Source: a virus. From it: DNA of 31,540 nucleotides. Below the pieces are notes generated by a model. The model was not told the origin of the DNA, made no database searches, and saw only the letters and a list, made by a program, of their open reading frames with translations. Position 1 is the first letter of the stretch. Each line of letters starts with the position of its first letter. The translations under genes were made by a program, and so were the position numbers. The stretch spans positions 1 through 31,540 of the IMG/VR virus record IMGVR_UViG_3300028553_001227; one strand, written 5' to 3'. Below, piece after piece: positions 1 through 30,618 of this stretch.

Positions 1-2339
1 ATATTTCTAGCTTCTGTTGTTCCGACAAGATTAATAATATCACTTTTTTCAGGACTGTTAATTAATCTACCAAAGTTTGTATAGTAAGAATATATGGATT
101 GTCTTTCATACATCTCATACAAATATTTTATTTGGTTTTTGTTTTGAAACGCTAAATTTGAATATGGAAATAAAATTGCATTTATATTAATTCTACGTGT
201 AAGTGAATTCTCGTTATCTTGTGGTGGTGTTGAAATAGGTGGTTGATACTTTTGAGTGACACCTTTTAGATATTCCTCCAAAAATTCTACTTCAGGCCAT
301 TTGTCATATAGATAGCCCTTTGTTAAGTTAACAATAGATGGGTCACCCGGATATGCTAATTCATATTTAGCCTTTTCAGGGTCGGTATTTTCAACAAAAA
401 CTTGTGGCCACGGATATACATCTAATTCAGTATTATCCGCAACTTGTTGATTAACATTTGTACCATACTGAACACTAAATTTGTTATCAGGGTTTGGAGC
501 AGTGATTGATGGATTTAAAATAACGTTTCTTCTTACAGGGTCTCTTCTTACATCCCAAGCCTTTGAATGAACGTCATTCATTAATCTGATGAATGCCTCT
601 GTAGATGCCATTATAACCGCCAAAACATTTCTAACATTCGGAATGAATCCAATACCAGTTGTTGGTGATGAAATCGTTTTTTGGAGTTTTTCCGAAATTT
701 CCAACTCAATAGTATTTTGTTTTGTATTGAGTTGTCCTTCCATATCTTTTATCAAACTTTCAAACCTACCGGGTCCATCAAAGGTAAAGAACGGTAGTTT
801 CACTTCTTTAATACCTTCTTGTGTAACCTCACCTCTAACACCCCATTTTAATATTTCAGATGCTTGGAATTGAGATATCTGAACCGCAGTTGGGTTTACA
901 ATGCCTGTTTGAGCAATGAAGGTGCGTCTCCAATCAATATCTAATGGTTGAAATATTGTAAACGTGTTGTAAGTTATTTGATTTGTAATTTTATAATTAG
1001 CTGTTCCTTTTATAGAACCAAAAGTAGCATTTTCATTCAAGGCGGTATTACCTTCAAGAACCAAAGATTTTAATTTACTCTCACCTCTTTTGATAAAACT
1101 TATTTCATTTTGTTTAAATGTATAAACCCTATTATCAGAATTAATTAAATAATAAGGATTTTGACCCATATATTCCGCAAACCATGAAGTTTTGGAACCT
1201 CTTACTTTTTCATAATAACCTAACAACGCCTTTCTATAATCTTCAGCATCAGTTAGTGGTTGTAAATCGGCTTTATCTTTGTAAACATCCAAGATTGTTT
1301 GTTCCAACTTCATCAATTTATATTGAAGTTGTGCCACAGTATATCTTGGGAAGTCTGCTGGTATTAACTGTTTTGCAACATATTCTGAATATACTTCATT
1401 AATTTTTTGTAGTCCACGAGCATCAATCGTATCAATACTAATTGTTGAGTTTAATTGTGTTGACGATGATATATTCTGTGCAGTATTAGTTACTTGTGTT
1501 TCCGAGTTAGCATTTAAAGTTGTTTCACCACCAATTGTTTTGGAGAAATTAAATGCCGTTTCATACATGTGTGGAACCGCAACTAAGTGTCCCATCGAAA
1601 TCTCATTAAGGATATTATATTTGTAACCAAAAAACTGAAGGGTAACCAAGTAGTTGCCACTAATAGAGTTAAAGTCCGCACTAAATTTGTGTAAGTTTAA
1701 TTGATATCTAATTGCTTGACCATAATACCCTTTCATCGTTAAATAAAAGACAGGATATGGTAAATTGAAAAATGCAGCGTAAGGTGATTGGTCTCCAAGT
1801 TCAAACAAAGCTCTACCCTGAACATCTTCTAATCTTATCGTTACCTCAGGAATAAACGATAGATTTGTTCTGGCCTCAATACTTGTAATACCCAATAACC
1901 CTGGGTCAACAGTACCCCCTAAATTAGTTTGAAATCTTTGTTTGAAATATTTTTTTCCATCAGTGGTATCCACTAAATCTTCATATCTCTGTAGTCTAGC
2001 TTTCTTTTCTGTTGAACCTAAACCTGTTAAATCATCGTAATATCCCGTATTTAGATAGTCTTCATCATTAGGACGAAGAAAATTAATCTTCGCTAGCGAT
2101 ACTGTTCTAATATTATCTTGTGGGCTTGAACCCAATGCCAACTTTGTTCTTGGAAGAATTTCAGCTTCAAGATTAGCATACATCACCAAGTTTTCATGGT
2201 CAACTAATCTTTCTTCAACAACTTGTTGCCCATTAGACGCAATACGCCATGTTTTGTTAGGGTCAACTAATATAACATTGTTATATGCAGCCTCAACAAA
2301 AATGTTTCCTGAGTTGTCTGATAAACCATTACCTACCAT
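1..2339 (-). CDS. Large structural (probable baseplate) protein, C-terminus beyond the left edge
   Basis: This reading frame starts at ATG 2339 and stays open to base 1, giving at least 779 residues; it is truncated by the window edge. The N-terminus reads MVGNGLSDNSGNIFVEAAYN and is followed by a segment with VDHENLVMYANLEAEILPRT. No enzymatic motif is visible. The composition, rich in N, T, Y and Q with many beta-like stretches, is that of a virion structural protein. Its start overlaps the stop of the upstream gp53-like gene by 11 bases, so the two are translationally coupled and belong to the baseplate operon that starts with the 1681-residue protein. I infer a baseplate or tail-tip role from position only; no T4 gene can be assigned. 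No Shine-Dalgarno sequence precedes the ATG. Confidence 0.75.
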   Translation of the reverse strand, partial: MVGNGLSDNSGNIFVEAAYNNVILVDPNKTWRIASNGQQVVEERLVDHENLVMYANLEAEILPRTKLALGSSPQDNIRTVSLAKINFLRPNDEDYLNTGYYDDLTGLGSTEKKARLQRYEDLVDTTDGKKYFKQRFQTNLGGTVDPGLLGITSIEARTNLSFIPEVTIRLEDVQGRALFELGDQSPYAAFFNLPYPVFYLTMKGYYGQAIRYQLNLHKFSADFNSISGNYLVTLQFFGYKYNILNEISMGHLVAVPHMYETAFNFSKTIGGETTLNANSETQVTNTAQNISSSTQLNSTISIDTIDARGLQKINEVYSEYVAKQLIPADFPRYTVAQLQYKLMKLEQTILDVYKDKADLQPLTDAEDYRKALLGYYEKVRGSKTSWFAEYMGQNPYYLINSDNRVYTFKQNEISFIKRGESKLKSLVLEGNTALNENATFGSIKGTANYKITNQITYNTFTIFQPLDIDWRRTFIAQTGIVNPTAVQISQFQASEILKWGVRGEVTQEGIKEVKLPFFTFDGPGRFESLIKDMEGQLNTKQNTIELEISEKLQKTISSPTTGIGFIPNVRNVLAVIMASTEAFIRLMNDVHSKAWDVRRDPVRRNVILNPSITAPNPDNKFSVQYGTNVNQQVADNTELDVYPWPQVFVENTDPEKAKYELAYPGDPSIVNLTKGYLYDKWPEVEFLEEYLKGVTQKYQPPISTPPQDNENSLTRRININAILFPYSNLAFQNKNQIKYLYEMYERQSIYSYYTNFGRLINSPEKSDIINLVGTTEARN

Positions 2340-2652
2340 AATAAAAGAAGTGTGCCTCTACAGCCGATTTATAATCTTGTAATGAAGTTACTAAAGGATA
2401 CGGAATACTCAATATAGCACCGTCAAATATATTATTTTCCATACCACTATATTGAGGATTTGCTTGTAATATCAACCAACCGAAGAATGGTGTACCATAA
2501 TATTCTTGAGAAACTTTATCTAATCTACTCACACCAACTTTATAAACATAAACCTTATCTGAAGGTTTTGTAGGTATTGCAACATAAGGAACAACAGTTT
2601 GTTCACCATTTATGTAAAAAAGATTGTATCTGTTATAATATCCTAACGCCAT
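2329..2652 (-). CDS. gp53-like baseplate wedge protein (LysM-like)
   Basis: This 107-residue protein contains a LysM-like stretch at about residues 30-88: a tract ending YKVGVSRLDKVSQEYYGTP, then WLILQAN and later FDGAILSIPYP. This is the pattern (recurrence through a YYG turn, a W/N pair, and an I-x-IP ending) seen in T4 gp53-type wedge proteins and in tail protein X. In T4, gp53 helps close the six wedges round the hub; whether the domain here binds peptidoglycan or only packs in the baseplate cannot be read from sequence. The ATG overlaps the last base of the stop of the 1681-residue gene, and its own stop overlaps the next start by 11 bases, which argues for translational coupling. It is shorter than T4 gp53, so the name is by analogy. 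Confidence 0.6.
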   Translation of the reverse strand: MALGYYNRYNLFYINGEQTVVPYVAIPTKPSDKVYVYKVGVSRLDKVSQEYYGTPFFGWLILQANPQYSGMENNIFDGAILSIPYPLVTSLQDYKSAVEAHFFYYGR

Positions 2653-5600
2653 TACAGTAATTCCACTTTAGTTGTTATAACACTTCCGTTTATGGTCGCC
2701 CACTTAGATGTATCCGTATTAGTATTATTTTTTAACCCTAAATCTTTGATGTATGTTTTTTGTTCAGTCGTTGGGGTTGATGAAACTTCATATGTGAAGA
2801 CTCTTTTCTTGTCCAATGGGAATGGTGTGTAGTTCAAATAGTTTGTCATTTGAGATTTTTCAAATTCATTAATCCAAGCTTTTGTAACCTCATCTTCTTT
2901 AGAATATACTCTACGAGAATCTTTTTGCCAATAATTTCTAAATTTATTTTGAAAATCATCTTTACCATCGCCAACTAAATCTTTATTGGTTATAATATTA
3001 CCGATAATTGCATTTTCAAACGATTCATAAAGTTTTTGGTCAATAACATCTTTTGATAATATCGCATATTCCCTACGTTTTGAATTTTCATCCCACCAAA
3101 TATCATCTGTAAATGGTACAAAAACGTTTTGTGTTACTTGGTTAGCTTGGAGTGGGTCGGTGACAAACATACCGGTATAAGCAACACCATTAATTGTTGT
3201 TTGAAAATCAATCTGACAAGCATCGTCAAACGCCTCCAAATTATTGGCAATTTTTTCAAAATCAGCACTTATTTCTTCATACGTGTTTGTAACACCAACT
3301 GATGAACTGTGAATTGCAGTTGTGCCCGAAATATTATAAATTACTTCAAGTCCATTTGTTTGTTGATATCCGTCAGTACCTTCACTTGCAGATAATGGAT
3401 TGTATGTAATAACATTTGTTCTTGCAAGTAATTGTATGTATTGTGTTTGTGCATTTGTTATACTCTGAATAATTGTTGATAATGGATTAACAAAACTATT
3501 CTGTTTTTCTGTAACAAATGTTTTCATATTTTGTTTCAATTGTCTCAATGCTTTTTTTGAGAAATTGAATTCGGTAGTATTCATATACCCAACAAAACCA
3601 TTTTCAGAATCTATATCACTAATATATTGAGAAAATAAATCATCAACAGTTTTTTGGAAATTAATTGGTTTACCGTAAATGTTTACAATGTCATTTGAAC
3701 TATAAGCCAATATGTAACCATCAGTATAATTTCTTTGTATTGGGAACAATTGTCTAATTGCGTTGTTATATTGACTATTAACATCTTTAGTTTTATTGAC
3801 GATTGTTGCAAAATAATTTTGGGTGTTCCCAACTAATTGGGTCATTAATGTTTTATATTCAATCGTTCCGTATTGAACACCGTTCTCATCTGTTTCAGTT
3901 GTTAAAACCTTACCAATAGTCTCTAAGTTAGATTGTGGTCTTGTATTCTCAACTTGGTTAATCGTTGGTGGTGGTACTTCTAATCCTAAATTCTTTACAA
4001 ATTGTTGGTCTAAAATTTTATAACTGTCATCAGTTGCGTCCGCCCTATCATCATAAATTTCTGTGTTACCGTAGAAGTTAAATGTTAATGCGTTTTGTAG
4101 TTTGTCTACAGCACTTTTTAAACCTTGTCCACCAACAAAACTAAATGATAAAGTGACGTTAGCAATCATAGGTTGAACCCCAATACCTTCAGGGTTTAAA
4201 TCCAAACCTTCATAAGTTAGTGAAAGGTTGTCTGGAATAATTTTAGAGTGGAAAAAGTCACCAACTCTTAAAACCAATACTGGAGGTGCACCAAATGCGG
4301 TGTTAATGGCGTTATTATATTCTAATTGTCCTTCAGAATTGACTGTTGGTATTGTATCACCAGGTCTCATACATTGTTGTAAAAATGTAAGTCTACTGTT
4401 TAATCCTTCAGGTGTAATTGAGTGGAATGATGGGTGAAAGAATTTTAATTTTTCTTTTAAGTTATCGTACACCATTGGTGTCTCTTGTTTAATAACCTCA
4501 AAATAATCACACTCAGATAATAAACTTCTTAAAACTCTCTTAGTAATGTTGTCCCTAAGAACAGTTTCTTCTGTTATAACTTGTTGAACAACAGTTTTGG
4601 AATCAACAACTGTTGTTAATTGTTCTTGAACCCTTGGTTGTGTAGGGTCAATCTTTGATGGTTGTTGGACAGGTACTGGCGTTTTGTCGTTAACAGTAAG
4701 TTTTACTCTTCTACACGCCATGGCACTTGTTGAATAAATTTTATCGTTACCCGTTAAATTCTGCGTACAATTTACCGAATCAAAAATGTTAACAACATCA
4801 CCAATTTCAGATTCAGGAATTACGATAGTTTCACCATCAGGTATTTCTACAAAAGTTATTTGTTTGTTATCCAAATAAGTTTGAAGACCTAATGTTTCTA
4901 AGAAATATTTCTTTACAGCATTTATTCTTCTTTGAGATAGAGCATCGTTATATGTTGTTGTTTGAGGAGAAGATGCACTACCAACTAAAACCATCTCAAT
5001 GATACCACCTTGTGATAATTTTTGTTTCATTAAATTAACTTTAGAATCAATTTTAATTTTATTTGATTCTATAATACTTGTATAAAAAGTTTTAATAGGT
5101 TCTCTTTCATCAGTATTCGCTTGTGATTGATACCTATTTTTAGTTGTCTGTGAAGTGTATGCTGAGTAATATGTTAAATAACTTTCAACAGGAATACTTG
5201 GTAATGGAATATCATTATCAAAATATAATGCACCAATATCACCCGTAAAATTTTCACTTGAATTACCTGTTTGTGTGGTATTACCATCATTAACTTGTAC
5301 ACCGGCACCATTTCCACCCCCACCAGTAGTTGCATCATTACCTGTTTGAATGGTGTTTGTCAAATAACGAACCTCTTCAGTTGTAACATTTTTAGTTGAT
5401 AATTTTTGTTGTATTTCAAAAATGTCTCGTGGGTTGATAGTATAATATTTTTGAGCCAATTCATAGAGGTCATATTTTCTACAACCTGCAAAGAATGACT
5501 CTAATATACCATCCACTCTACTCTTAAGAACTTCGTTTGATAATACTCTATTGACCAACATGTTTAATACAGATGGGTGGTCAACAACAATCTTCCAAGT

Positions 5601-7697
5601 TAATTGACCCGTTCTTGAAGTATTATTGTAAGTGTATACAGGTTCAGGACGACCAATGAAATCAGTCGTTTTAAAACCAGCTCTGGTTGATTCGTTAAAT
5701 GTTAAACCATATGGTGGGAACCACATTACTCTACCTCCATTCGGACCACGTTCACACGCAGGCAAATCTTGGACAGATAATCCCGGTCTGTTTGATGTTC
5801 TCCATGCCAAATTCTCCAACGAGAACATATATTTCTTGGCATAGAACCCACCACCAAATGGATATCCACCCACTATGTTAGTAGAGTCTTGTCCACCTTC
5901 TCTTTTGTTTGGTGCGATGTTTAAGTTATATGTGTTATCAAACACGGAATAAGCAAACTTTCTACCCTGTGTGGTAATACCATCGGTTTTCTGCAAGTCA
6001 TTAAACTGAAGGTATGGAGTATCTTTGGTAAAGATTCTACAATACTCAGCACCTCTTTCTTGACCGATTTCACCAACATAACGAACAACTTTTGAACCTT
6101 TGGTAATCTCTTTATACCCATCGTTGAATACCTTGGATACTTGGTCGATAGCGTTTCCTACGTGTTGGAATCTCTTACCCCCTCTTGGTTGCGAATCAAT
6201 GATACGTTGGGTTTCATCCAAGATAGAACCTTGTCTGAAGGTGTAGTTTGTTGATTCAGTTGGACCGTATCCTGCAGGTCCAAAGTCAGGGTCTTCACTT
6301 GTTGGGTCTCCACCAGGACTTACATACTTACCAGCGTTCCCTCTAAACTTTGGTGATACCCAAGTGAAACCACCTTCAATACCCCCACCACTACTGTATG
6401 TCGGTCCGTTAGCCCCAAGTCTAAGAGCTTTACCAGGTCCTTCATAAAGTTGTGAAAGTTCTGACGGTCCGTAAACAGGTGCTTTAACCTCTCTTCCAAA
6501 TTGGTCGGTTGGCACATCACCAACGGGTGAGAATATATTACTTGGTTCTGAAGTCTCTGAACCAACATAATAAAACCCTGCGTTTTCTGTTGCGGGTCTT
6601 AGAACTCCTGCAACTCTATCAAAAATAGTTTTTGAATAGTTTGGTCTATAAATGTTGTATTCTAAGTTTTTAAATAATATAGACTTTTGACCAGCTCCGG
6701 TGTTTTCCAAAAATAACACCGAACCTGTCTTAGGTGAACCAAAAAGTCTACCGAAGAATCTTCCAATTCCCGATGCCAAGTTAGCCCCTGCATAAGCCCC
6801 AAACAATTGCTGTGTGGTTCCCTGATTTTGTGGGTTAATACTTGGGTCAAAGTAACTTCCTGGTATTGTTGATAGTGGAACATAAGTTCCTGAAACCCTA
6901 TTTAATAAATCGGCTGACGCTCCCAACAATGATGTTGGTTGTGTAATAGTGTAGTTTGGTTCTATAATTGGAACCCTACCTGTTAAAATATTGAGGATAT
7001 TTGCTCCTCCGTTGACGTTAAGGAAGTTTGCTCTTCCTAATGTGTTTCGTCTTATTTCTCTTGCAGAGTTGAATAAGAACTGTTCCTTGTAGAAACCAGC
7101 ACTGATTTTTGCTAAATAAGAGTCACTTGATAACAAACCATCCGAACCTTGGGGGTCGGGGTTTATAATAAGTGATGATGCTCTATAGGATGAAGGATTA
7201 AATGTATTTGGATATGGTTGGTTATTGGAACCTCTACCATGTCTGTTTTGTAAAATTTCTAATTGGGTAAAGAACAATCCTGAATCGTATAGCTGATTCT
7301 GAGTGTTTGTCCCACCAAATGGGTTCAGTGGTAACCAAGCACCTTGAATACCAGGAAAACCTGTACGAGCAGCCTGTTGAGCTTCGTTTAGGATTGTTGC
7401 ATCGCTGTAATCGTATTCCCCCTCGTTTGAGTTTGTATTCTTAAGGGTGTTAACATCCGGTACTTGGATGTATCCACCATCTCTACCATATTGGTTAAGT
7501 GGATATACTTGGTTAGCAAAAACAGATGTGTCAATTAACGCATCATTACTGTCCGTAGGAGCCATATCCCTAAGGATTGTCTCATAGTTAATCGGAGGGG
7601 TAATACTTGATGGCGACTTTTTGTATGGCACAAGGTTCCTAACAATAAGTTTTTTTCTAAAAACCTCGGAACTAGGAAAATCTAATGAACTTGGCAT
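2652..7697 (-). CDS. Giant baseplate protein with internal OmpA-like domain
   Basis: This 1681-residue structural protein lies directly after the tape measure. Residues about 1-800 contain repeated G/N/P-rich segments and the block VMWFPPYGLTFNES followed by FIGRPEPVYTYNNTSRTG, a pattern I associate with phage baseplate proteins. Residues about 820-960 look like an OmpA/MotB C-terminal domain: LYFDNDIPLP at its start, then MVLVGSASS and YNDALSQRRINAVKKYF, matching the G-x-(A/T)-(D/S) ... YN-x-x-LS-x-x-R-(A/I)-x-x-V core. The C-terminal third includes VGDFFHSKIIPDNLSLTYEG, a tail-hub-like beta tract. OmpA-like domains bind peptidoglycan, so I infer that this protein contacts the cell wall during tail contraction. 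It leads a transcription unit with a TATTTAT box 13 bases before the ATG. No lysozyme motif was recognised. Confidence 0.7.
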   Translation of the reverse strand: MPSSLDFPSSEVFRKKLIVRNLVPYKKSPSSITPPINYETILRDMAPTDSNDALIDTSVFANQVYPLNQYGRDGGYIQVPDVNTLKNTNSNEGEYDYSDATILNEAQQAARTGFPGIQGAWLPLNPFGGTNTQNQLYDSGLFFTQLEILQNRHGRGSNNQPYPNTFNPSSYRASSLIINPDPQGSDGLLSSDSYLAKISAGFYKEQFLFNSAREIRRNTLGRANFLNVNGGANILNILTGRVPIIEPNYTITQPTSLLGASADLLNRVSGTYVPLSTIPGSYFDPSINPQNQGTTQQLFGAYAGANLASGIGRFFGRLFGSPKTGSVLFLENTGAGQKSILFKNLEYNIYRPNYSKTIFDRVAGVLRPATENAGFYYVGSETSEPSNIFSPVGDVPTDQFGREVKAPVYGPSELSQLYEGPGKALRLGANGPTYSSGGGIEGGFTWVSPKFRGNAGKYVSPGGDPTSEDPDFGPAGYGPTESTNYTFRQGSILDETQRIIDSQPRGGKRFQHVGNAIDQVSKVFNDGYKEITKGSKVVRYVGEIGQERGAEYCRIFTKDTPYLQFNDLQKTDGITTQGRKFAYSVFDNTYNLNIAPNKREGGQDSTNIVGGYPFGGGFYAKKYMFSLENLAWRTSNRPGLSVQDLPACERGPNGGRVMWFPPYGLTFNESTRAGFKTTDFIGRPEPVYTYNNTSRTGQLTWKIVVDHPSVLNMLVNRVLSNEVLKSRVDGILESFFAGCRKYDLYELAQKYYTINPRDIFEIQQKLSTKNVTTEEVRYLTNTIQTGNDATTGGGGNGAGVQVNDGNTTQTGNSSENFTGDIGALYFDNDIPLPSIPVESYLTYYSAYTSQTTKNRYQSQANTDEREPIKTFYTSIIESNKIKIDSKVNLMKQKLSQGGIIEMVLVGSASSPQTTTYNDALSQRRINAVKKYFLETLGLQTYLDNKQITFVEIPDGETIVIPESEIGDVVNIFDSVNCTQNLTGNDKIYSTSAMACRRVKLTVNDKTPVPVQQPSKIDPTQPRVQEQLTTVVDSKTVVQQVITEETVLRDNITKRVLRSLLSECDYFEVIKQETPMVYDNLKEKLKFFHPSFHSITPEGLNSRLTFLQQCMRPGDTIPTVNSEGQLEYNNAINTAFGAPPVLVLRVGDFFHSKIIPDNLSLTYEGLDLNPEGIGVQPMIANVTLSFSFVGGQGLKSAVDKLQNALTFNFYGNTEIYDDRADATDDSYKILDQQFVKNLGLEVPPPTINQVENTRPQSNLETIGKVLTTETDENGVQYGTIEYKTLMTQLVGNTQNYFATIVNKTKDVNSQYNNAIRQLFPIQRNYTDGYILAYSSNDIVNIYGKPINFQKTVDDLFSQYISDIDSENGFVGYMNTTEFNFSKKALRQLKQNMKTFVTEKQNSFVNPLSTIIQSITNAQTQYIQLLARTNVITYNPLSASEGTDGYQQTNGLEVIYNISGTTAIHSSSVGVTNTYEEISADFEKIANNLEAFDDACQIDFQTTINGVAYTGMFVTDPLQANQVTQNVFVPFTDDIWWDENSKRREYAILSKDVIDQKLYESFENAIIGNIITNKDLVGDGKDDFQNKFRNYWQKDSRRVYSKEDEVTKAWINEFEKSQMTNYLNYTPFPLDKKRVFTYEVSSTPTTEQKTYIKDLGLKNNTNTDTSKWATINGSVITTKVELL

Positions 7698-7731: not shown

Positions 7732-9471
7732 TTATTTTCTTGATGAAAGTGGTTTAGTACCATTTTCATCTATTTCACCAAGAACTTTTACTAAAGCATT
7801 TCTAAATTCTGGACTTTGAACATATTGTGTAAGTCTGGCGGTATCAACACCAACAGGGGCATCAATTACAAATCTTACTTGACCATTAATATTAACATCT
7901 TTTTGTTGATTTACTTCAACATCTTTAGCCATGCTTTTCTTAGCCCTATCAACAGCGGAAGTAATCTTTTCATTATAAAGACTTTCTTCACTACTTCTTG
8001 GTTTTTCAATACCAAGTTGAGATGCAAGATTCATAAATTTACTAACAACACTACTATTAAGTTCATTTGATTTCTCTTCAACTCTTTTTGTAGCTTCATT
8101 AAGAGCGTTCACGTCACCTCTTGCCGCTTTTTCTAATAAATCTTTAAAGTCATCACCCACAGTTTCAAAGAATTTTCTTGTATCTTCACCACTACCTAAA
8201 ACTCCTTCAGAATATAAGGCACCTGCTATATCGTCACCAGCTCTTTTAAGTGCTTCAGCGCCTCTAATAATCGCCGATTGTCCACCGATAGCATATCCAA
8301 TTTGGATTGGTAATGCCGCAAAATCTCTTTGTATTGTTTCCAAAACACCAAGTTGAGACCTTTGTATATCTTCAACTGTTTTTGGTGCACTTTCTTGGAT
8401 TTCCCTTAATTTTTGGAATTCTTCTGATTGTAGGTCACTTAACCTTTTTGTTTGGTCCTTACCTTCATCGTCTTTAATCTGAACAACATAATCACCCTTA
8501 AAAGCTCCCGTACCCATCTTAGCCATGTTAGCAACCAACATTTTTTCTTCTTCAGTTGCATTGATTCCAAGATTAATCTGACCAAGTCTTCTGTCCATGT
8601 CAGCTGCGGATAGTGCGGTTTTTGTAAATTCAGCCGCGGTCATTCCCGCAGCTTCGGCAATTTCTTTAATTTGTCTTTGTGCACCCGGTGCAATTTTAAA
8701 TGATTGAGTCTTCTCATCAAATATCGTAAATTGCTTGGTAAGATTGATTAAACTATCTTGAAGTCCTGCAGGGTCGTTAATTGATTTATCCATTAACACA
8801 AACGGGTCAACCAAATCACCCGCCATAACACCCAATCTTTGGAACGCAGATGCCATTTCAATAGCACCTTGTGGATTCATAACACTGTCAGCGAATTTGG
8901 CGGTGGTTGCCATATCAAATCGTAACATAGATGCCTGTGCCGCCATTTTTGTTAATCCAACAACACCATCAGAAAAATTAAACCTATTCATGTATTCCAT
9001 GCTATTGACAACGTCTTGCATGATTTTTCTTGAATTAAGTCCTAAACTTTGAACATATCCAATGGATTCTGCGACTGTCTCCCCAACTTGTGATATTTCG
9101 TATCCAGCTGCTTGGAAATTTTCAACAAGTCTTGCAGGGTCCGCTTGTTGACCAATAAGTTGTGCCGCAGCATAAATTTCAGTAATTGTATCTGTAGTTT
9201 CAATTACATTTCTACGAGCACCTTCACTGATAGATATAATTGTTGAATCAATGTCATCAAGAGAAGCACCAACACGGACTAAACTTGATGCAGAATCACT
9301 AATAGCATTCGAAAACTCAACAGCTCTTAATCTACTGTCTCCAAAAGACTTATTAATATTATTAATTCCCGTATAGATTTTATCTATGGTATCTTTAAAG
9401 TTCAAGGTGTCTTGATACGCCTTGAAAACATCACCCATACTATTAAAATCATTCGGATTGTTGTTAGCCAT
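7732..9471 (-). CDS. Tail tape measure protein (gp29-like)
   Basis: This 579-residue, largely alpha-helical protein is rich in A, S, Q and charged residues and has long heptad-like stretches (residues about 40-300 and 380-480). It lies downstream of the tube and gp26-type genes and upstream of the baseplate genes, as T4 gene 29 and other tape measures do. The length is close to the 590 residues of T4 gp29, so a tail of about T4 length is expected. Helical segments containing MANMAKMGTGAF and ADMDRRLGQINLGI fit a tape-measure core. It starts at ATG 9471, with a TATTTAT box 13 bases upstream and no Shine-Dalgarno sequence. I see no peptidoglycan hydrolase domain, unlike in many siphophage tape measures. 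Confidence 0.75.
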   Translation of the reverse strand: MANNNPNDFNSMGDVFKAYQDTLNFKDTIDKIYTGINNINKSFGDSRLRAVEFSNAISDSASSLVRVGASLDDIDSTIISISEGARRNVIETTDTITEIYAAAQLIGQQADPARLVENFQAAGYEISQVGETVAESIGYVQSLGLNSRKIMQDVVNSMEYMNRFNFSDGVVGLTKMAAQASMLRFDMATTAKFADSVMNPQGAIEMASAFQRLGVMAGDLVDPFVLMDKSINDPAGLQDSLINLTKQFTIFDEKTQSFKIAPGAQRQIKEIAEAAGMTAAEFTKTALSAADMDRRLGQINLGINATEEEKMLVANMAKMGTGAFKGDYVVQIKDDEGKDQTKRLSDLQSEEFQKLREIQESAPKTVEDIQRSQLGVLETIQRDFAALPIQIGYAIGGQSAIIRGAEALKRAGDDIAGALYSEGVLGSGEDTRKFFETVGDDFKDLLEKAARGDVNALNEATKRVEEKSNELNSSVVSKFMNLASQLGIEKPRSSEESLYNEKITSAVDRAKKSMAKDVEVNQQKDVNINGQVRFVIDAPVGVDTARLTQYVQSPEFRNALVKVLGEIDENGTKPLSSRK

Positions 9472-9501: not shown

Positions 9502-9681
9502 TTATTTTTGAGATTTATCTTCAATCCATTTATTCAAAAGATACTTCCTAATAAAGATAGGCATAATCAAAAATTCTTGGTATGAAACACCAAGTAACGT
9601 CTTCAAATAATAAAATTCGTCTATTTGAGACTTTCTATATTCAGAAGAAAGGACGAAAAAATTCGACCCCAAACCCAACAT
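9502..9681 (-). CDS. Small tail chaperone-like ORF overlapping the gp26-type gene (possible frameshift product)
   Basis: This ORF encodes 59 residues, from ATG 9681 to TAA 9502. The core reads SEYRKSQIDEFYYLKTLLG and then SYQEFLIMPIFIRKYLLNKW. It overlaps the 3' end of the gp26-type gene by 41 bases in the +1 frame and is followed by the tape-measure gene. A small overlapping frame directly before the tape measure is the arrangement of tail assembly chaperones (lambda G/GT, Mu 41/41'), in which the second frame is reached by ribosomal frameshift. The upstream frame contains TTT TTT C at 9661-9655, where a +1 (or -2) shift would join the frames and give a fusion of about 292 residues. Alternatively, it is translated from its own ATG. 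In T4 this position is occupied by gp51, a hub assembly factor. Confidence 0.6.
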   Translation of the reverse strand: MLGLGSNFFVLSSEYRKSQIDEFYYLKTLLGVSYQEFLIMPIFIRKYLLNKWIEDKSQK

Positions 9682-10381
9682 TCACTGTGAGTTTTTCTCC
9701 TGACGGGGCCATAACAATTCTTTCCATATCCAATCTTGGTTCATTTTCATTCATAAATTTTTTAATGAATTTAGAGTCAGCTATTGGCATCTGCTCTACA
9801 AATTTTGTTATTTCACCCTTATCAGTGTTTCCATTAATACTTTGAATTTCTTTTACTAATCTCATCGTAACTCTTGGAACAACCCTACCTTGTGGGTACG
9901 ATTCAAATATTTTTCTAAGTTCTAAACCATCACCATAAGTAAGTGGTTTTAATTTAACTTGAACACCTGATACAGGTAAAGTTGCTGAAAATGTACCATC
10001 AGTATCAGGTTCAGCCCCTTTATTGATGTTTAACTCATCCAACAAAACTTGTGTTTTGAATTCATTACCAGTTACTGGGTCTTTTAAAGACATTTCCATT
10101 TCAGGTCCGAAAGAGGTATTTCTTAAGAAAATTAAAATTGCCTCAATATCACCCTCCAACAACTCTTCAGGTTTCATACCGGGTTCATACAATTTATTTC
10201 TAAGAAGTTGCATAGTAACATCGTCACTTCTTCCCATCAAAATGTTTTCATCCGCAGCGGTTAGGTATCCTACCTTGACAGAACTTTTTTTGTTTTTATA
10301 AAAAATACCTCTTGAAGGTAATTGAACCACGTCATGTGGCATTGAGAAATTTTCTTGTCCGTATTGTGATATATCTTCCAT
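9641..10381 (-). CDS. gp26-type baseplate/tail assembly protein
   Basis: This 246-residue protein begins MEDISQYGQENFSMP and continues with LPSRGIFYKN, then LTAADENILMGRSDDVTMQLL. This LPSKG-x-FY plus DE-x-x-L arrangement is the signature of the T4 baseplate gp26 family. In T4, gp26 belongs to the central hub pathway with gp29 and gp51. By position (after the tube gene, before the tape measure) it corresponds to the tape-measure chaperones of other tails. The 3' end overlaps the 59-residue ORF in another frame. The leader carries a GTAGA/TCTAC hairpin followed by seven T residues only four bases before the ATG, which may dampen expression relative to the tube gene. It is somewhat longer than T4 gp26 (208 residues). 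Confidence 0.75.
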   Translation of the reverse strand: MEDISQYGQENFSMPHDVVQLPSRGIFYKNKKSSVKVGYLTAADENILMGRSDDVTMQLLRNKLYEPGMKPEELLEGDIEAILIFLRNTSFGPEMEMSLKDPVTGNEFKTQVLLDELNINKGAEPDTDGTFSATLPVSGVQVKLKPLTYGDGLELRKIFESYPQGRVVPRVTMRLVKEIQSINGNTDKGEITKFVEQMPIADSKFIKKFMNENEPRLDMERIVMAPSGEKLTVNVGFGVEFFRPFF

Positions 10382-10449: not shown

Positions 10450-10938
10450 TTAGTAAATTAAAACACAACGGTCAGGTCTTAGACTACAAGTAATTGTAGC
10501 TAATCCATCTTGGGAATAGTTAAGGGTTTGAAAATCTACATTTGTTAGGAATGTTCCGTACAAAATCCATTTTTCAACAACAACACCTGTTGGGTCTACC
10601 ATCTCAAGGTCAATATCTTTTTTATAACCCGCAGCGTAACCCATACGACCTGTCACTGATTCGGCATGTAAACGAACCCACTCCATAAGAGCTTGAGCAG
10701 CAGATGGACCAATTGGGTCACGGAAGGTAACCGGAATTTCATCCCAGTTAAATCTACCTGCAACAAATGTTGATGTATTCAAAAACTGAATCTCAGTTGA
10801 ATTAATTTTAATTGATGGACGTTTTGTTGATTCAACAAACCATTCGTTAATACCTAACGAAGAAGGAAACCTTAGGATAAAGCGGTTTTGACGCTTCGGT
10901 TCGTAAGGTATGGGCATTTTCATTAATAAATCAGCCAT
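10450..10938 (-). CDS. Tail tube protein (gp19-like)
   Basis: This 162-residue protein is nearly the same length as T4 gp19 (163). The middle reads FVAGRFNWDEIPVTFRDP and ALMEWVRLH, followed by YKKDIDLEMVDPTG and then WILYGTFLTNVDF. These match the gp19 pattern (NVAG-x-x-x-(F/W)DDWxVTxxND, an aromatic helix, K-x-x-I-x-x, and a G-x-x-P-T-NVG-type strand). It forms the stacked hexameric inner tube around the tape measure. It has its own leader with a TATTTAT box 36 bases upstream and no Shine-Dalgarno sequence, as expected for a strongly expressed late gene. A separate terminator-like hairpin follows it. Confidence 0.85.
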   Translation of the reverse strand: MADLLMKMPIPYEPKRQNRFILRFPSSLGINEWFVESTKRPSIKINSTEIQFLNTSTFVAGRFNWDEIPVTFRDPIGPSAAQALMEWVRLHAESVTGRMGYAAGYKKDIDLEMVDPTGVVVEKWILYGTFLTNVDFQTLNYSQDGLATITCSLRPDRCVLIY

Positions 10939-11913: not shown

Positions 11914-14900
11914 TTAGATATTTTCAAACGAAGCCCCACTTGGAGTGATGAAGAATTCAATATCAATGAATTCAAGAGCTTTCGTAGGTTTTAAGTAAAT
12001 TTTACCTGTTAATGTGTTTCTATCCAAATCTTCAGGTGAAGAACTTACTGTTACACGGAAGTCATAAAGACCTCTGTCTCTTCTGATTGAGTCAAGGATA
12101 GGGTTAACCGAATCCAAGAACTGTTGTCTTACGATTTCGTCATTTTGTTCAAACAACAATCTAACTGCCACCGCTGAAATCAACTTACGAGCTTGTAACA
12201 ACAATCTTCTTACGTTCAATCTGTTAAGAGCTGAATCTTTAACTTGAAGAGTTTTGTTACCCCAAATTACAGTTCCAACATCAGAGAAGGTTGCAATTGG
12301 GTTGATACGACCTTGATACAAGGTGTCTCTATCTTCTTGTGTAAGTTTCAATCTCGCCTTAACTGAGTTAACAAGACCTCTTGTGTAACCCGCCGATGCG
12401 AACCATGGGAATGAAATGTTATCAGTCAACGCTAAGTTTCTACAAACTTGACCTGTTGGTGGTAAGTAGATTTGAGTGTTGTTAACAGTATCTCTTTCCA
12501 AAATCCATGGGTAGTAAGTTGCTGTGTATGATGAATCAATTCCTGTATCATCCAAATTGTCAACCGCCTCTTGTGGGTAAATGATTTCGTATTGAGAACC
12601 ACCGTCTGAAGTGTACATGTTGTAGTCAGGGGTTGTCACGATGTAAACCGAGTCAGCCCTTTCATTTTCAATCATACCAATTGCACTTTCACACAAGTTA
12701 GAGTTGTTAATGTAATCAATACTTGAAGTTGCGAATACGTTGATGTTTGTTGATTCAGGGTTATTGAATGACAAGATACCAAGTAAGTAAGCGTAGTAGT
12801 CGGTGTTTGCAAAATCTTGTGTATTGTTCGCCACAACGATTCTCTTGAACGTACCGTCACCAGATGCTGTCGGATATCTTTGAGTAGGTGTAGAACCTTG
12901 TAAGTACCCTGATGCACCCAACATAAATCTGTCTTGGTTAGTTCTAAACTCTCTGTAGTTATCCCATCCATCAAATCCACCTTGGAAACAGAATGTATAT
13001 TTTCTTGAGTATAAGAAATAATATGGATTATCTTGAGTTGTTGGTTCACCATCAAAATTTGCAACACCACAAACAAACGCTGGTGTACCACTTGTAACTT
13101 GAGCATTACCGATAGTAACAACTGTAGCACCTGAGTCCATGTGGAAACCTTGAGTTAGGTAATTCCAAGGTTCTGATTCAGTTGCTGTATCCCAACCTAC
13201 AACAGGGTTCTTTTTACCCTTATATTGTAACAAGTCAGAGTCAACACCAAATTGTGAAGACATACCAAGGTAAGTTCTTCTTACAACGTCACCACTTGAA
13301 GACACGATGTTTGTTCCACCGTATGTACTTCCAAATGGGGGGTCAAAGATTGTTTCACCTGGGAAGAAGTATTTGTTTTTGATTATAGGGAATGGTGAAG
13401 GATTTGATACACTATCGTATACTCTTTCTTCAAAACCACGGAAACCACAAGGTAATGCGTCTATTGGTGCCTCATCAGAAAGTTCAATCATGATGTAAGC
13501 AGATACTAATGGAAACTCACCATTAGAAGAACCAATCTTTTTAGCGACAAAACTGTTAGAACCTGGGTCCATAGTACAGTTTGTATATTTTTCATAAACA
13601 ACAGGATTTGCGTCTGTATCAAAGAAATCTCTAACTAAAACATCAAAAGTTTGATTTGAGAATGAAATGTTAGCGATTGAAATTTTAACTTCTGTGTTTG
13701 CAGAACCACCATCTGAAATTGATACAAATTTAAATAAGTTATAAACCTTGTTACCTCTTAATTCAGATACAACAAATGGAGTCTTTGGTGTTTGATATTT
13801 GTCCAAGAACCAAGCAATAGAAGTTGTTGAAGTTTTATCTCTTGCTTCAGGTAAAGCAATTAACTCACAGTTTAATCCTCTAATATATCCTTTGTTATAT
13901 GCATAATTTAATAGACCTGGGTAGGACTCTTCAACATAAATAGGAACCTCAGTTCTTGATTTTGAGAAGTTAGTGATACCAAGAACCTTTGTGATGTAAT
14001 TAGCATCAACACTACCAAATGAAGTTTCAAATTGGAATGTTTTATTTTCATAAGTAACACCACTCAATAAGAATGTTGAGAACGGACTATTTGTAACTCC
14101 TGAATATGCTCCTGTACAAATCATATCCAAGTCAGTCAATCCTGTTACTTGATAAACAGGACCATGATTGTTAGCGTCATATACTGAAATACCTCTTGAA
14201 CGAAGAGTCGCAACAACTAAGTCATTGTACTCTGTGTAAGCAGTTCCACTGTAGTAATAAACAGTACCTGATAAAGTTACATCAAAATTTCCAGTTCCAC
14301 CTGTGGTGAAATCCGTAACCGCATAATCCCAAGAAAAACCTGAGTAACTATTATTAGAATAATTTGTAAAAGTTGCATAATACCAAGGGTCATTAACAGA
14401 ATCTGTTAAATCGTTAAACGCTAAGTTCATACTATCAACACTGAATACGTTACGCAAAGTTGTGTATTGAGCAGACAAGTCATTGTATTCTGTTTCAGGA
14501 ATTGAACCATAAACATTCAATGTAGTACCTGTAATATTTGTATTACCTGAAACACCTAAAATAAAATTAAAAATATCATTATTGTAAGTGCTTGTTGAAC
14601 CATTGTTTAACAAGTATTGAATGTTAAGGTTGTCAGCAATAACGTCAGGTAATGGAGTTGTAAAGTTTAAAACATTACTTACACCTGTGTTACCGGTTAC
14701 TACTGCGGTAAAGTTTAGTGCCACAACATCAGTATCTACTCCGATTGTTGTACCATCTACGTTAGCGGTCACTCTAATAGACCAAGAAGGACCCGCATCA
14801 TAACCTGATAAACCAAGTACTCTTGTTACGAATAATTGGTTAGATTGTTGTAGATATGCCTTTGCAATATATGCGGCTTCATATTTAGGGATTTGCGTTC

Positions 14901-15114
14901 CAATGAATTTTTCAGGAACGGTACCTCCGAAGAATGTTTGAAATTCGTCAAAGTTGGTTATAAAAATAGGTTCAAATGCTGGACCCTTTAATGTTTCACC
15001 AACTAGACCCAAAGTAGTTACACCTACGCTTTGGGCCACGAAAGACAAATCGGTTTCCGAAGTGTAAACACCTGGAGATACAAATACTTTCTGATTAGCT
15101 TGTGCTGTTGCCAT
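11914..15114 (-). CDS. Contractile tail sheath protein (gp18-like), enlarged
   Basis: This 1066-residue protein has the conserved sheath ends. The N-terminal block has VSPGVYTSETDLSF, then VGVTTLGLVGETLKGPAFEP and FDEFQTFFGG (residues about 10-65). The C-terminal block has TLQVKDSALNRLNVRRLL, RDRGLYDFRVT and GKIYLKPTKALEFIDIEF (residues about 950-1055), the part that makes the inter-subunit handshake. T4 gp18 has 659 residues; the extra length lies in the middle (about 110-880), where surface-exposed protease-resistant domains sit in T4. The sheath contracts to drive the tube into the cell. It starts at ATG 15114 (MATAQANQK) with a TATTTAT box 35 bases upstream and no Shine-Dalgarno sequence, and it ends at a strong terminator. 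Confidence 0.9.
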   Translation of the reverse strand: MATAQANQKVFVSPGVYTSETDLSFVAQSVGVTTLGLVGETLKGPAFEPIFITNFDEFQTFFGGTVPEKFIGTQIPKYEAAYIAKAYLQQSNQLFVTRVLGLSGYDAGPSWSIRVTANVDGTTIGVDTDVVALNFTAVVTGNTGVSNVLNFTTPLPDVIADNLNIQYLLNNGSTSTYNNDIFNFILGVSGNTNITGTTLNVYGSIPETEYNDLSAQYTTLRNVFSVDSMNLAFNDLTDSVNDPWYYATFTNYSNNSYSGFSWDYAVTDFTTGGTGNFDVTLSGTVYYYSGTAYTEYNDLVVATLRSRGISVYDANNHGPVYQVTGLTDLDMICTGAYSGVTNSPFSTFLLSGVTYENKTFQFETSFGSVDANYITKVLGITNFSKSRTEVPIYVEESYPGLLNYAYNKGYIRGLNCELIALPEARDKTSTTSIAWFLDKYQTPKTPFVVSELRGNKVYNLFKFVSISDGGSANTEVKISIANISFSNQTFDVLVRDFFDTDANPVVYEKYTNCTMDPGSNSFVAKKIGSSNGEFPLVSAYIMIELSDEAPIDALPCGFRGFEERVYDSVSNPSPFPIIKNKYFFPGETIFDPPFGSTYGGTNIVSSSGDVVRRTYLGMSSQFGVDSDLLQYKGKKNPVVGWDTATESEPWNYLTQGFHMDSGATVVTIGNAQVTSGTPAFVCGVANFDGEPTTQDNPYYFLYSRKYTFCFQGGFDGWDNYREFRTNQDRFMLGASGYLQGSTPTQRYPTASGDGTFKRIVVANNTQDFANTDYYAYLLGILSFNNPESTNINVFATSSIDYINNSNLCESAIGMIENERADSVYIVTTPDYNMYTSDGGSQYEIIYPQEAVDNLDDTGIDSSYTATYYPWILERDTVNNTQIYLPPTGQVCRNLALTDNISFPWFASAGYTRGLVNSVKARLKLTQEDRDTLYQGRINPIATFSDVGTVIWGNKTLQVKDSALNRLNVRRLLLQARKLISAVAVRLLFEQNDEIVRQQFLDSVNPILDSIRRDRGLYDFRVTVSSSPEDLDRNTLTGKIYLKPTKALEFIDIEFFITPSGASFENI

Positions 15115-16986: not shown

Positions 16987-17033
16987 TATATTTAATTTGT
17001 TTGTGTATAAACCTACGTACCAATAAATACGAG

Positions 17034-19895
17034 ATGGGAATTAGTCTTACAATAGAATCCAAAGCAATTACAGCACTTGAAAGTTATGACGGCGCAAATA
17101 ACTATATTTTTAACCTAAAACACAAACTTCAATTAAATCCTAAGTTTTATCCAACAAGGGCTCAATCAGAATATATTTTAACCAACAAAGACAAGACCCC
17201 CAAGGTTGCGAAAAAGTGGGTGGTTCTTGATTCATACTTTGCAAACAAACTCGCCAACGATAAATTTCTTCTTCAGATTCCTGAGAGGATTTGGGTTGAA
17301 AAACTCTTGGCTGAAAAAGACAAAGCCTATCATGTGTGGGGTAAGTTTTTTGAAACGGATTCATTTACCGATTTTTGGATTCCCAAAGCATCTTTGATTA
17401 AAGACAATAAAGTTGAAATTAAAGAAATTGATTATTCTAAGTATTCACACCGTCCTCCGTTAGACCACCAAAAAGTTGCCATAGAAGAACTCTTAAAAAA
17501 TAAAAAGTTTATTTTGGCAGACGATATGGGACTCGGGAAATGCGAACCAAAAAATAACAGGGTATTTACCCCATTTGGTAGAAAAAATATTGGGGATATT
17601 AAAGTTGGGGATAAGGTTATTGGTCGTGATGGCAAACCTCATAATGTAATTGGTGTATTTCCACAAGGCGTAAAAGAAACTTATAGAATAACATTTAATG
17701 ATGGATTTTCAATTTTAACGGGAGACGAACATCTATGGTCAGTTTTATCACCTAATTATGGTAAAAATACAAAAAACGATAGACGAAAAAAATCTTTAGT
17801 TCTTTCGACAAAGCAAATGTATGAGGGTGGTAAAATTAAAGTTAAAGGTATTGATTATAATAAAGATAAGGAATATGAGATTGAAACTTATTACAAATCA
17901 CCAAATAGTAACAATAAATGGCAAATCCCTATTGTAGAACCGATTCAATTTGAACGTAACGACAATCTTCCAATTAATCCTTATTTTTTAGGATTGATTT
18001 TAGGGGATGGACATATAAATAAATCATCCTGTGTTTTTACAGTACACTGTGACGATTATGATGAACTATTTGATAGTTTTGGTTTGAATGAAAATAAAAA
18101 AATTAAAAATCAGAGAAAAGGAATTAAATTAATCGGTAGGGATGTGTTGAACGGACTCAAACTAAACGAAACACGTTCCCATAACAAATTTATTCCAGAA
18201 ATATACAAATATTCATCAGTTGAAAATAGACTGTCAATACTACAAGGACTAATGGACACTGACGGTCATTGTATGTTTAATGGTGGTGGAAAGTTTTTAG
18301 GAACTGAATTTAGTACCATTTCAAAACAACTATGTGATGACGTTGTTGAAATTGTACAAACATTAGGTGGTATTGCAAGAGTAAAAACTCGTATTCCAAC
18401 CTATACTTATAATGGTGAAAAAAAGAAAGGTAAGTTAGCCTATAGGGTTAATATTAAATTACCAAAAGGAATGAACCCATTTAAATTAAAAAGAAAGGCA
18501 AATAAATATATTGAACCAAAAAAATACCCAACAGGTAGGTATATTAAAAATATTGAGAAAGTTGGTTTTGAAGATAGTGTTTGTATATCGGTGGATTCTC
18601 CTGATAAGTTATATGTAACTGAACATTGTATTGTTACACATAACACAACATCAACAATCATCGCTGCGTTGGAGACGGGGTCTAAAAAGATTTTAATTAT
18701 TTGTCCGGCAACTCTTAAGATTAACTGGCAAAGAGAATTCTTATTGTATTCTGATAAGACAAGTTATGTTTGTGATGGTAAGAACTTTTCTGAGAATCAC
18801 GACATTTTGATAATGAACTACGATATCATCAAAAATTTCCACGATACAAAAGACAACGAGAAATCTTTGATTTTTAAATCAAAGTTTGATTTGGTTATCA
18901 TTGATGAGGCTCACTATGTTCAAAACGTCCAAGCTCAAAGAACCAAACTAATTAATGATTTGGTTAAGAACGTGGATAGACTATGGTTGTTAACGGGTAC
19001 TCCTATGACCTCACGACCCATCAATTACTTCAATCTATTGTCATTGGTGGATTCACCCGTGGCAAAGAATTGGATGGCTTACGTGGTTCGTTATTGCTCG
19101 GGTTACCAATTCAAAGTTGGAAATAGAAAAGTATGGAATGTCATGGGAGCATCAAACTTGGAGGAACTCCGAGACAGAACTGGTTCAACAATATTAAGAC
19201 GCCTAAAAGATGATGTGTTGGATTTGCCAGAGAAGATTATCACCCCAGTTTATTTGAGATTGCGGTCCAAGAACTACGAAGAGCTAATGGGTGAATACTA
19301 TAACTGGTATGAAAAAAACCCGGAGGAAAGTAAAAACCTTTCAATCCAATTTACAAAATTGATTCAAGTGCGTCAGTTGATTGCCGATGAAAAAACTCAG
19401 CACACCATCGAACTTGCCGAAAACATCATCGAGCAAGGAAAGAAGGTTATTATCTTTTGCAACTTTACCCATTCCCTTGAAATCATTTACAATCACTTTG
19501 GAAAAGCTGCGGTTCGTTTGGATGGGTCGATGAGCAAAACACAACGTCAGGATGCTGTGGATAGGTTCCAGGAAGATGAAAAGGTAAAAGTTTTTGTGGG
19601 TAATATAAAGGCTTCAGGAACCGGAATCACTCTAACCGCCGGTGAAGCTGTTATAATGAATGATTTATCATTTTTACCTTCAGATATGGCACAAGCTGAG
19701 GATAGGGCCTACCGATACGGACAAAAGAACAATGTTCTCGTATATTACCCATTGTATGAAAATACTTTAGAGATGATAATTTATAACATTGTGAATTCAA
19801 AAAAGAAAATTATATCAACTGTAATGGGGGATGTGAATAACGCAACAGATGCCGCCGAAGAAATTCTGAAAAGAATTTATGAAATGAAAAAATAA
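17034..19895 (+). CDS. SNF2-type DNA helicase/translocase interrupted by an intein
   Basis: This is a 953-residue precursor (extein 585, intein 368). I chose ATG 17034 (MGISLTIESKAI); an in-frame ATG at 17001 adds eleven residues that look like leader. Superfamily 2 motifs of the SNF2/SMARCAL1 type are seen: FILADDMGLGK joined across the intein to TTSTIIAAL (Walker A), VIIDEAHYVQN (DEAH box), WLLTGTPM (motif III), then after about 200 residues VIIFCNFTHSLEIIYNHF, VRLDGSMSKTQRQDAVDRF, ASGTGITLTAGEAVIM, and AEDRAYRYGQKNNVLVYY (motif VI). Such ATPases anneal, fork-regress or remodel DNA during replication and recombination; T4 has UvsW, Dda and gp41 in this general role. The intein sits between the Lys and Thr of GKT, so an unspliced protein should lack ATPase activity. 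A terminator hairpin follows. Confidence 0.85.
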   Translation: MGISLTIESKAITALESYDGANNYIFNLKHKLQLNPKFYPTRAQSEYILTNKDKTPKVAKKWVVLDSYFANKLANDKFLLQIPERIWVEKLLAEKDKAYHVWGKFFETDSFTDFWIPKASLIKDNKVEIKEIDYSKYSHRPPLDHQKVAIEELLKNKKFILADDMGLGKCEPKNNRVFTPFGRKNIGDIKVGDKVIGRDGKPHNVIGVFPQGVKETYRITFNDGFSILTGDEHLWSVLSPNYGKNTKNDRRKKSLVLSTKQMYEGGKIKVKGIDYNKDKEYEIETYYKSPNSNNKWQIPIVEPIQFERNDNLPINPYFLGLILGDGHINKSSCVFTVHCDDYDELFDSFGLNENKKIKNQRKGIKLIGRDVLNGLKLNETRSHNKFIPEIYKYSSVENRLSILQGLMDTDGHCMFNGGGKFLGTEFSTISKQLCDDVVEIVQTLGGIARVKTRIPTYTYNGEKKKGKLAYRVNIKLPKGMNPFKLKRKANKYIEPKKYPTGRYIKNIEKVGFEDSVCISVDSPDKLYVTEHCIVTHNTTSTIIAALETGSKKILIICPATLKINWQREFLLYSDKTSYVCDGKNFSENHDILIMNYDIIKNFHDTKDNEKSLIFKSKFDLVIIDEAHYVQNVQAQRTKLINDLVKNVDRLWLLTGTPMTSRPINYFNLLSLVDSPVAKNWMAYVVRYCSGYQFKVGNRKVWNVMGASNLEELRDRTGSTILRRLKDDVLDLPEKIITPVYLRLRSKNYEELMGEYYNWYEKNPEESKNLSIQFTKLIQVRQLIADEKTQHTIELAENIIEQGKKVIIFCNFTHSLEIIYNHFGKAAVRLDGSMSKTQRQDAVDRFQEDEKVKVFVGNIKASGTGITLTAGEAVIMNDLSFLPSDMAQAEDRAYRYGQKNNVLVYYPLYENTLEMIIYNIVNSKKKIISTVMGDVNNATDAAEEILKRIYEMKK
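17541..18644 (+). mobile_element. Intein with LAGLIDADG homing endonuclease in the helicase Walker A motif
   Basis: The 368-residue in-frame insertion begins with Cys (codon 17541) and ends with His-Asn (18639-18644) before the extein Thr. Block A is CEPKNNRVFTPFGRKNIGDI; block B contains LTGDEHLWSV with its His; the C-terminal blocks read YIKNIEKVGFEDSVCISVD and then YVTEHCIVTHN. Two LAGLIDADG-type motifs are present, YFLGLILGDGHI and ILQGLMDTDGH, each with an Asp in the catalytic place (GD and TD), so the homing endonuclease looks intact. The insertion site, within the P-loop of a helicase, is a favourite intein site because it is conserved at the DNA level. The coding is more A/T-rich than that of the flanking exteins, which agrees with acquisition by transfer. 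Confidence 0.92.
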
Positions 19896-29947: not shown

Positions 29948-30618
29948 TGTTTTGGTTTAATAAATGAGTCACCGAATAACGCATCAAAGTTTATTGTTTC
30001 ATAACCACAAGTTTCGGTAAAATCAATCAATATTTGTCTAGCCTCTTCCTCAGGAATTGAGTTTTGATAATTGTTTTCAAATAAAATAAATGGTTTTTTA
30101 TTTAAACGAGAAATAATTGGTTGTATAGACCGAAGTATTTGATAATCTTGTGTTTCAGTGTCAATTTTAATAAAGTCAAATGATTCTAAGTCATTAACAT
30201 ATTGGTCAAAGAAATCATACCCACTAACCATTTGAACTTCATATCCTTCACTTTTGTGAATTTGGGATACACCCATGTTAATATGGTCAGGTGTTGAATG
30301 TTCAATTGAATGTGTTTGAAAATATGTTTTACCTGACCTATCTGAAATTGCAAAGTCGTGTAATACACAGTTAGGTGTTGTACCAAATTTTTCTGTTAAA
30401 TAGTCAAATAACTGAGGTGCGGGTTCCACCATGATAACTTGTTTAATTGAATAATCTCTTGATAATACATCGTAGAATTTTCCAACGTTTGCTCCAATAT
30501 CAATATAACTTAATTCAGTTAAGTTTTTAGGACCAAAATAATCTTTTAAGTAGTTAATCTCAATACCAATATTTCTTTCAATTAACTCATCATCCCAAAT
30601 TTTTATTAAATCTTTCAT
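29944..30618 (-). CDS. FkbM-family methyltransferase
   Basis: This 224-residue protein shows the FkbM signature: LSYIDIGANVGKFYDVLS (motif I), IMVEPAPQLFDYL (motif II region), ISDRSGKTYFQT and DFIKIDTETQDYQIL. FkbM-type enzymes methylate hydroxyls of sugars and polyketides and are common in polysaccharide gene clusters. With the second methyltransferase, sulfotransferase and glycosyltransferases it forms a decoration set. The start and end overlap the neighbours by ATGA. Confidence 0.85.
   Translation of the reverse strand: MKDLIKIWDDELIERNIGIEINYLKDYFGPKNLTELSYIDIGANVGKFYDVLSRDYSIKQVIMVEPAPQLFDYLTEKFGTTPNCVLHDFAISDRSGKTYFQTHSIEHSTPDHINMGVSQIHKSEGYEVQMVSGYDFFDQYVNDLESFDFIKIDTETQDYQILRSIQPIISRLNKKPFILFENNYQNSIPEEEARQILIDFTETCGYETINFDALFGDSFIKPKQ

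Follow-up and report, generated by a model that had tools for sequence, protein, structure and literature searches.

An OmpA-like domain is embedded in a giant tail protein of an uncultured phage family, and the pocket with which domains of this kind hold the peptidoglycan stem peptide is, to judge from the aligned homologues, kept as a unit with one fixed substitution: a serine replaces the aspartate that contacts the amino group of diaminopimelate (DAP). The same serine is found in a cellular sub-family of OmpA domains from Bacteroidota, the phylum that this phage family probably infects. The domain appears to interrupt a putative tail-tube initiator. The window, that is, the whole stretch of DNA that was analysed, is the 31,540-base IMG/VR record IMGVR_UViG_3300028553_001227; since this short stretch is the entire record, it is probably a fragment of a phage genome. 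The open reading frame singled out by the original prediction is real and lies on the minus strand, which had not been stated (Table 1).

The gene belongs to a T4-type tail module that runs leftward through the sheath, the tube, a gp26-like hub protein, a 579-residue protein, the giant protein, a gp53-like wedge protein and a large tail gene. This order is common to the window, Flavobacterium phage immuto and Microcystis phage Mel-JY01, and the sheath, tube, gp26-like and gp53-like proteins of both phages match their counterparts in the window. Searches of Pfam and PHROGs gave no family match for the 579-residue protein, which takes the place of the tape measure. Placed between the tape-measure position and gp53, the giant gene has the position of an initiator-type gene. 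The tail setting assumed in the earlier proposal of an embedded OmpA-type domain is supported by the flanking sheath, tube, gp26-like hub and gp53-like genes.

Table 1. Position of the tail genes in the window and of the domains and residues discussed within the giant protein.
Feature	Position	Strand	Basis
Large tail gene after the gp53-like gene, cut by the window end	3..2339	-	
gp53-like baseplate wedge protein, adjoining the giant gene	2329..2652	-	phrog_7145, E 1.2e-4
Giant tail protein, 1681 aa	2652..7697	-	ORF and translation
Putative tube-initiator domain, second half (residues about 1110-1190)	4128..4370	-	Conserved block, same structural matches as the first half
OmpA-like domain (residues 819-1009), with helical insertion after strand 1	4671..5243	-	AlphaFold2 model, PDB comparison, profile matches
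Cys pair C977 and C995 (CRR motif), probable disulfide	4713..4769	-	Each in 149/150 homologues
Y916, N917, L920, R924 (PorE Tyr583, Asn584, Ile587, Arg591)	4926..4952	-	
S909, at the DAP-contact Asp position (PorE Asp576, TagL Asp486, A. baumannii OmpA Asp271)	4971..4973	-	
F826, equivalent of PorE Phe541 (contact with DAP and L-Ala)	5220..5222	-	
Putative tube-initiator domain, first half (residues about 616-770)	5388..5852	-	Conserved block, model, shared motif
579-aa protein at the tape-measure position	7732..9471	-	Position only
T4 gp26-like baseplate hub protein	9641..10381	-	PF12322, E 1.5e-9; phrog_150, E 5.6e-15
Tail tube protein	10450..10938	-	phrog_4542, E 2.8e-24
Tail sheath protein	11914..15114	-	phrog_23, E 9.4e-56

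Relatives of the giant protein were confirmed in 557 IMG/VR stretches, while tblastn of the whole protein against 50,697 GenBank phage records gave no match. The alignment of 60 nearly complete homologues defines a conserved core (residues 480-1240) and, within it, a variable part (799-1038); the OmpA-like domain was found in all of the 150 homologues compared. For the core, PHROGs yielded nothing beyond a weak match, seen in 16 of 36 members, to one uncharacterised family. A HMMER profile of the whole protein found nothing in immuto, Mel-JY01 and LR756508 at default filters and, with the filters off, a sole notable match among the three, the 716-residue protein of immuto (E 0.0022). Two divergent members of the family sit in Bacteroidales MAGs (L164 and L165). 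The one from the rumen Paludibacteraceae MAG (L165:8879-12400, plus strand) has a degenerate OmpA region, with the arginine retained, the asparagine lost and a shortened loop. The alignment of distant members also reveals several invariant cysteines in the core outside the OmpA domain, which is unusual for a tail protein. Two groups of candidates from phage records were rejected: MT835758, labelled as a phage and weakly matched, resembles Bacteroides chromosomal DNA, and the ordinary OmpA domains in GenBank phage records look bacterial and mostly carry cellular gene names (ompA, yiaD, pal, yfiB).

The fold of the domain can be considered settled. Residues 819-1009 are modelled as a beta-alpha-beta OmpA C-terminal domain of the OmpA/Pal/MotB type. 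An OmpA/MotB-type core had been proposed for residues of about 820-960 on the basis of two segments, LYFDNDIPLP and YNDALSQRRINAVKKYF, which begin at residues 824 and 916 of the giant protein; this core is present, and the full domain reaches to about residue 1009. The window protein alone matches the Pfam OmpA family (PF00691) weakly, with an E of 0.0032 that lies under the gathering score. Individually, 25 of 35 homologous domains match the family (best 3.1e-6, counting E up to 0.1), and the gathering cut-off is exceeded in two of 13 large relatives. When the profile of the 35 domains was compared with the PDB, almost only OmpA-family chains were recovered (best E 9.5e-6). Structure prediction, the check recommended originally, led to the same fold: the AlphaFold2 model of residues 808-1049 (pLDDT 84.1, pTM 0.77) superimposes on TagL (7bba; Z 11.0, 2.3 A over 110 residues) and on peptidoglycan-bound A. 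baumannii OmpA, a stem-peptide complex (3td5; Z 10.7), and every one of its top PDB structural matches is OmpA-like. The paired cysteines at 977 and 995 probably form a disulfide; the pair is conserved in the phage family, and no cysteine follows the pocket arginine in 22 cellular relatives. Beside strand 1, residues 830 and 833 (about 5199-5210) are each cysteine in 21 of the 150 homologues, possibly as a second disulfide or a metal site.

The contacts between OmpA-like domains and DAP have been described in several proteins. In PorE, a relative at the level of domain architecture, a stem peptide occupies the same pocket: Arg591 and two backbone amides bind the DAP carboxylate, Asp576 (through its side chain and backbone) and Asn584 bind the DAP amine, and Phe541, Tyr583 and Ile587 give hydrophobic contacts (PMC7192894). 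The corresponding contacts of TagL are Asp486, Asn494, Leu497 and Arg501 (PMC8253398), and for A. baumannii OmpA the variants D271A and R286A served as evidence that DAP association depends critically on these two residues (PMC6572160). Counted from the Asp position, the Asn, Leu/Ile and Arg contacts lie at +8, +11 and +15 (PMC8253398, PMC7192894), and the phage domain retains these three at the exact spacing. Among the 150 homologues, N917 and R924 are invariant, position 920 is leucine in 142 and isoleucine in eight, and Y916 is tyrosine in 144. F826 is phenylalanine in 144 as well, with conservation rank 14 of 184. The canonical aspartate that contacts the DAP amino group is absent from the phage domain: the position of S909, aligned to aspartate in the PDB profile comparison, is serine in 149 of the 150 homologues and in all 85 non-redundant ones. 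In the original prediction, a loss of the Asp/Arg contacts was to count as a refutation of peptidoglycan binding. The arginine is there, together with the asparagine, and the aspartate is not, which counts against canonical binding; it is no clear refutation of binding, because the Bacteroidota cellular sub-family has the same serine.

The six side-chain positions of the pocket have a mean entropy of 0.11 bit, compared with 2.09 for the domain (85 non-redundant members), a value as low as which was not reached by any of 100,000 random draws of six positions. It is important to note that positions of a fold can stay conserved for structural reasons; read with this caution, the conservation of the pocket argues for a putative ligand.

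The nearest relatives of the phage domain, as judged by profile and tree comparison, are the TPR-propeller-OmpA proteins of Bacteroidota, paralogues of PorE and CHU_0125. The phage-domain profile matches these cellular proteins with E of 1e-20 to 1e-33, while ordinary OmpA domains are matched at about 1e-8 and weaker. Matches of 1e-22 to 1e-33 occur in 15 of 60 genomes from the order of one MAG with the phage gene, and six of 296 genomes drawn from the phylum Bacteroidota have matches down to 1e-25. Of the seven cellular proteins examined, most have TPR repeats or resemble PorE/CHU_0125 in their N-terminal part (E 1e-28 to 1e-53, short of the family cut-offs); a TonB-C fusion is also among them, and the OmpA sub-type is the same in all seven. 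All 21 cellular relatives that could be read at the Asp position have serine there. For comparison, the ordinary OmpA domains of the two Bacteroidales MAGs have aspartate in 17 of 19 readable cases and serine, within a GYASPEG motif, in the other two.

The PorE and CHU_0125 families, which are TPR-PD40-OmpA envelope proteins, likewise contain an OmpA domain, at the C terminus. Their Ser-type paralogues share with it the strand-1 motif LYFxNDxPxP, the helical insertion and the serine, whereas PorE itself has Asp576. The phage protein differs from all of them in that it lacks TPR repeats and propeller, has its domain embedded in a tail protein and contains the extra Cys pair. In a maximum-likelihood tree, the Ser-type domains of phages and cells group together (100/100) to the exclusion of the ordinary OmpA domains; within this clade, a cellular group (100/97) and a phage group (81/87) are sisters. 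The change from Asp to Ser was first viewed as decay that would refute binding, a view that was dropped once the same serine was seen in the cellular relatives. Because these relatives share the serine and the clade, and because the pocket is highly conserved in a variable domain, the Ser-type pocket looks like a shared and probably host-derived ligand pocket that has been retained, and not like decay. Transfer from host to phage is the simplest story that we infer, since OmpA domains are otherwise cellular; the tree does not give the direction, as the phage and cellular groups are sisters.

The regions that surround the OmpA-like domain may resemble baseplate proteins of contractile systems. 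Once OmpA-like chains are set aside, the structural matches to the model of residues 470-1265, which is of low confidence outside the OmpA domain (mean pLDDT 52), are 13 baseplate chains of such systems (Z 8.4-9.8, 122-150 residues aligned). They come from PVC, AFP, diffocin, pyocin R2, phage A-1(L) (baseplate initiators), phi812, Bas63, phiCD508, AlgoCIS and the Anabaena and Streptomyces systems. All 13 alignments span both flanking blocks (model residues 137-735), starting before the OmpA domain and ending past it. In most rows, residues of about 2-156 of initiators such as those of PVC, AFP, A-1(L), phi812 and AlgoCIS align to both phage blocks. Since the alignments begin before and end after the OmpA domain, the model, together with synteny, suggests, with fair but not final support, that this domain is a loop insertion splitting one tube-initiator/hub domain. 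The flanks had been described as baseplate beta domains; in the low-confidence model they are apparently two halves of a single domain and not separate ones. Compared with each other by hhalign as a candidate duplication, the two blocks gave no match; neither did hhalign match them to T4 gp5, gp27, gp48, gp53 or gp54.

The syntenic proteins of immuto and Mel-JY01, of 716 and 2255 residues, contain the conserved motif of the first half as well; hhalign gives E of 5.7e-4 and 2.2e-4, respectively, compared with 0.043 or worse in 20 shuffles. These counterparts have the same place beside the tape measure. No OmpA match was found in them, and an OmpA insert would not fit, because just about 110-180 residues remain past the motif; the window protein has 1681. 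The putative identity of the giant protein as a tail-tube initiator/hub subunit of a contractile-tailed phage is supported by the low-confidence model and by synteny, more weakly than the OmpA fold.

In T4-like tails, the initiator ring moves with the tube on sheath contraction. On this basis, a mechanism can be proposed in which an initiator loop would have been enlarged by an OmpA-like domain of the type that ends the Bacteroidota TPR-propeller-OmpA envelope proteins, most simply acquired from the host. The domain keeps the stem-peptide pocket, save for the serine in place of the aspartate that holds the DAP amino group. When the sheath contracts, the ring would cross the outer membrane together with the tube tip and would carry the domain into the periplasm, the usual workplace of OmpA domains; there its copies would bind to the wall and keep the tip in place during DNA passage. 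Such a wall-docking role of the tube tip is the preferred reading, with chances about equal for and against. Peptidoglycan would be the likeliest ligand, since the clamp for the carboxylate is preserved, as is most of the pocket; this ligand, the delivery into the periplasm and the copy number are what we infer. A related arrangement is found in type VI secretion, where TagL, the closest solved fold by Z, likewise places an OmpA domain on a contractile machine. TagL, however, is located in the attacker's own envelope and keeps the aspartate, whereas the phage domain belongs to the device that is injected and would be turned towards the wall of the target.

Against wall docking, the equivalent of D271 of A. 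baumannii OmpA, reported to be critical for DAP binding on the basis of D271A (PMC6572160), is missing here. The absence of this aspartate also fits a different and rather unlikely explanation, namely that a folded block was recruited for contacts inside the virion, with initiator subunits or with wedge or tape-measure proteins, and that its pocket holds a neighbouring chain or merely preserves the fold. In the same direction, the Cys pair is family-wide and absent from the cellular relatives, which suggests adaptation to the virion, and the domain is present without exception in the 150 members compared, which is not what a host-range module would show. Nonetheless, the domain is the most variable part of the conserved core and yet its pocket is nearly invariant, while a purely structural role would rather predict conserved interfaces.

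It seems improbable to a further degree that wall docking is replaced by binding of an envelope component other than peptidoglycan, for instance the C-terminal carboxylate of a protein or the partner of the Ser-type proteins (to our knowledge, none has been described), in a kind of receptor contact or mimicry. The Ser state, the strand-1 motif and the helix insertion are common to the phage and cellular sub-families, and the combination of a kept Arg and Asn with a lost amino-group-binding Asp would suit a carboxylate with no free amine. On the other hand, backbone amides and the asparagine also hold the DAP amine in PorE (PMC7192894), so that serine may suffice for peptidoglycan.

Concerning the lysozyme, no hydrolase family was found in the giant protein by Pfam or PHROGs. 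The lack of a lysozyme in the window says nothing, because the window ends inside the next tail gene. In many relatives this gene is complete (e.g., L003:8614-15843), encodes mostly 2100-2450 residues and is essentially without a Pfam match. In the phage immuto, which lacks the OmpA insert, the corresponding gene ends in a VanY carboxypeptidase domain. Among the 13 large relatives, Amidase_2 is present in nine, M23 in three, an SLT match in three and the phage lysozyme domain (PF00959) in one; the amidase, about 50-60 kb from the giant gene in those relatives where both could be placed, may be the endolysin. The original idea that wall anchoring replaces the T4 gp5 tail lysozyme found no support and is very improbable: four complete next tail genes with no Pfam hydrolase and the scarcity of PF00959 speak for it, but most of the large relatives encode a separate amidase and some have M23 or SLT domains, divergent hydrolases are possible in the giant tail genes, and immuto is a single contrast that makes no pattern.

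Phage-encoded OmpA-like folds are also found in stand-alone proteins, such as R9ZWT8 of Cellulophaga phage phi17:2 and the protein of virus sp. ctML55; these are separate proteins of 327-338 residues, with a weaker structural match, and do not lie inside a tail protein. A literature search, in which subscription journals were thinly covered, found no earlier paper that describes a phage tail protein with an OmpA-like domain. A broader reading, possible but doubtful in our opinion, is that a widespread clade of Bacteroidota phages would carry at the tube tip a Ser-type OmpA domain shared with its hosts, by which the injection device would dock to the wall on the periplasmic side. This would be a wall-gripping step undescribed for contractile tails, and the altered DAP pocket would represent a new binding class, present also in the hosts. 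The passage of a tail tip through peptidoglycan is known mainly for contractile tails with a lysozyme spike, and a conserved wall-type pocket in a large uncultured family (>550 IMG/VR matches) offers a direct handle on this step. It also points to an uncharacterised sub-family of Bacteroidota OmpA domains with Ser for Asp, so that the phage and host domains can be compared for the same ligand.

Some other genes of the window deserve mention. At 20346-21872 (plus strand), a phage protein of 508 residues includes an entire iron/manganese superoxide dismutase (Sod_Fe_N, E 1.3e-20; Sod_Fe_C, E 1.2e-40); the roughly 280 residues that come after it match no Pfam family. At 17001-19895 (plus strand), an intein with Hint and LAGLIDADG homing-endonuclease domains interrupts a SNF2/UvsW-type helicase at its nucleotide-binding motif (GLGK/C...HN/T). 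Finally, the region 26906-31436 (minus strand) encodes sugar and methyl transfer functions: an HtrL/YibB-like protein, an FkbM methyltransferase, a second methyltransferase and a family-2 glycosyltransferase.
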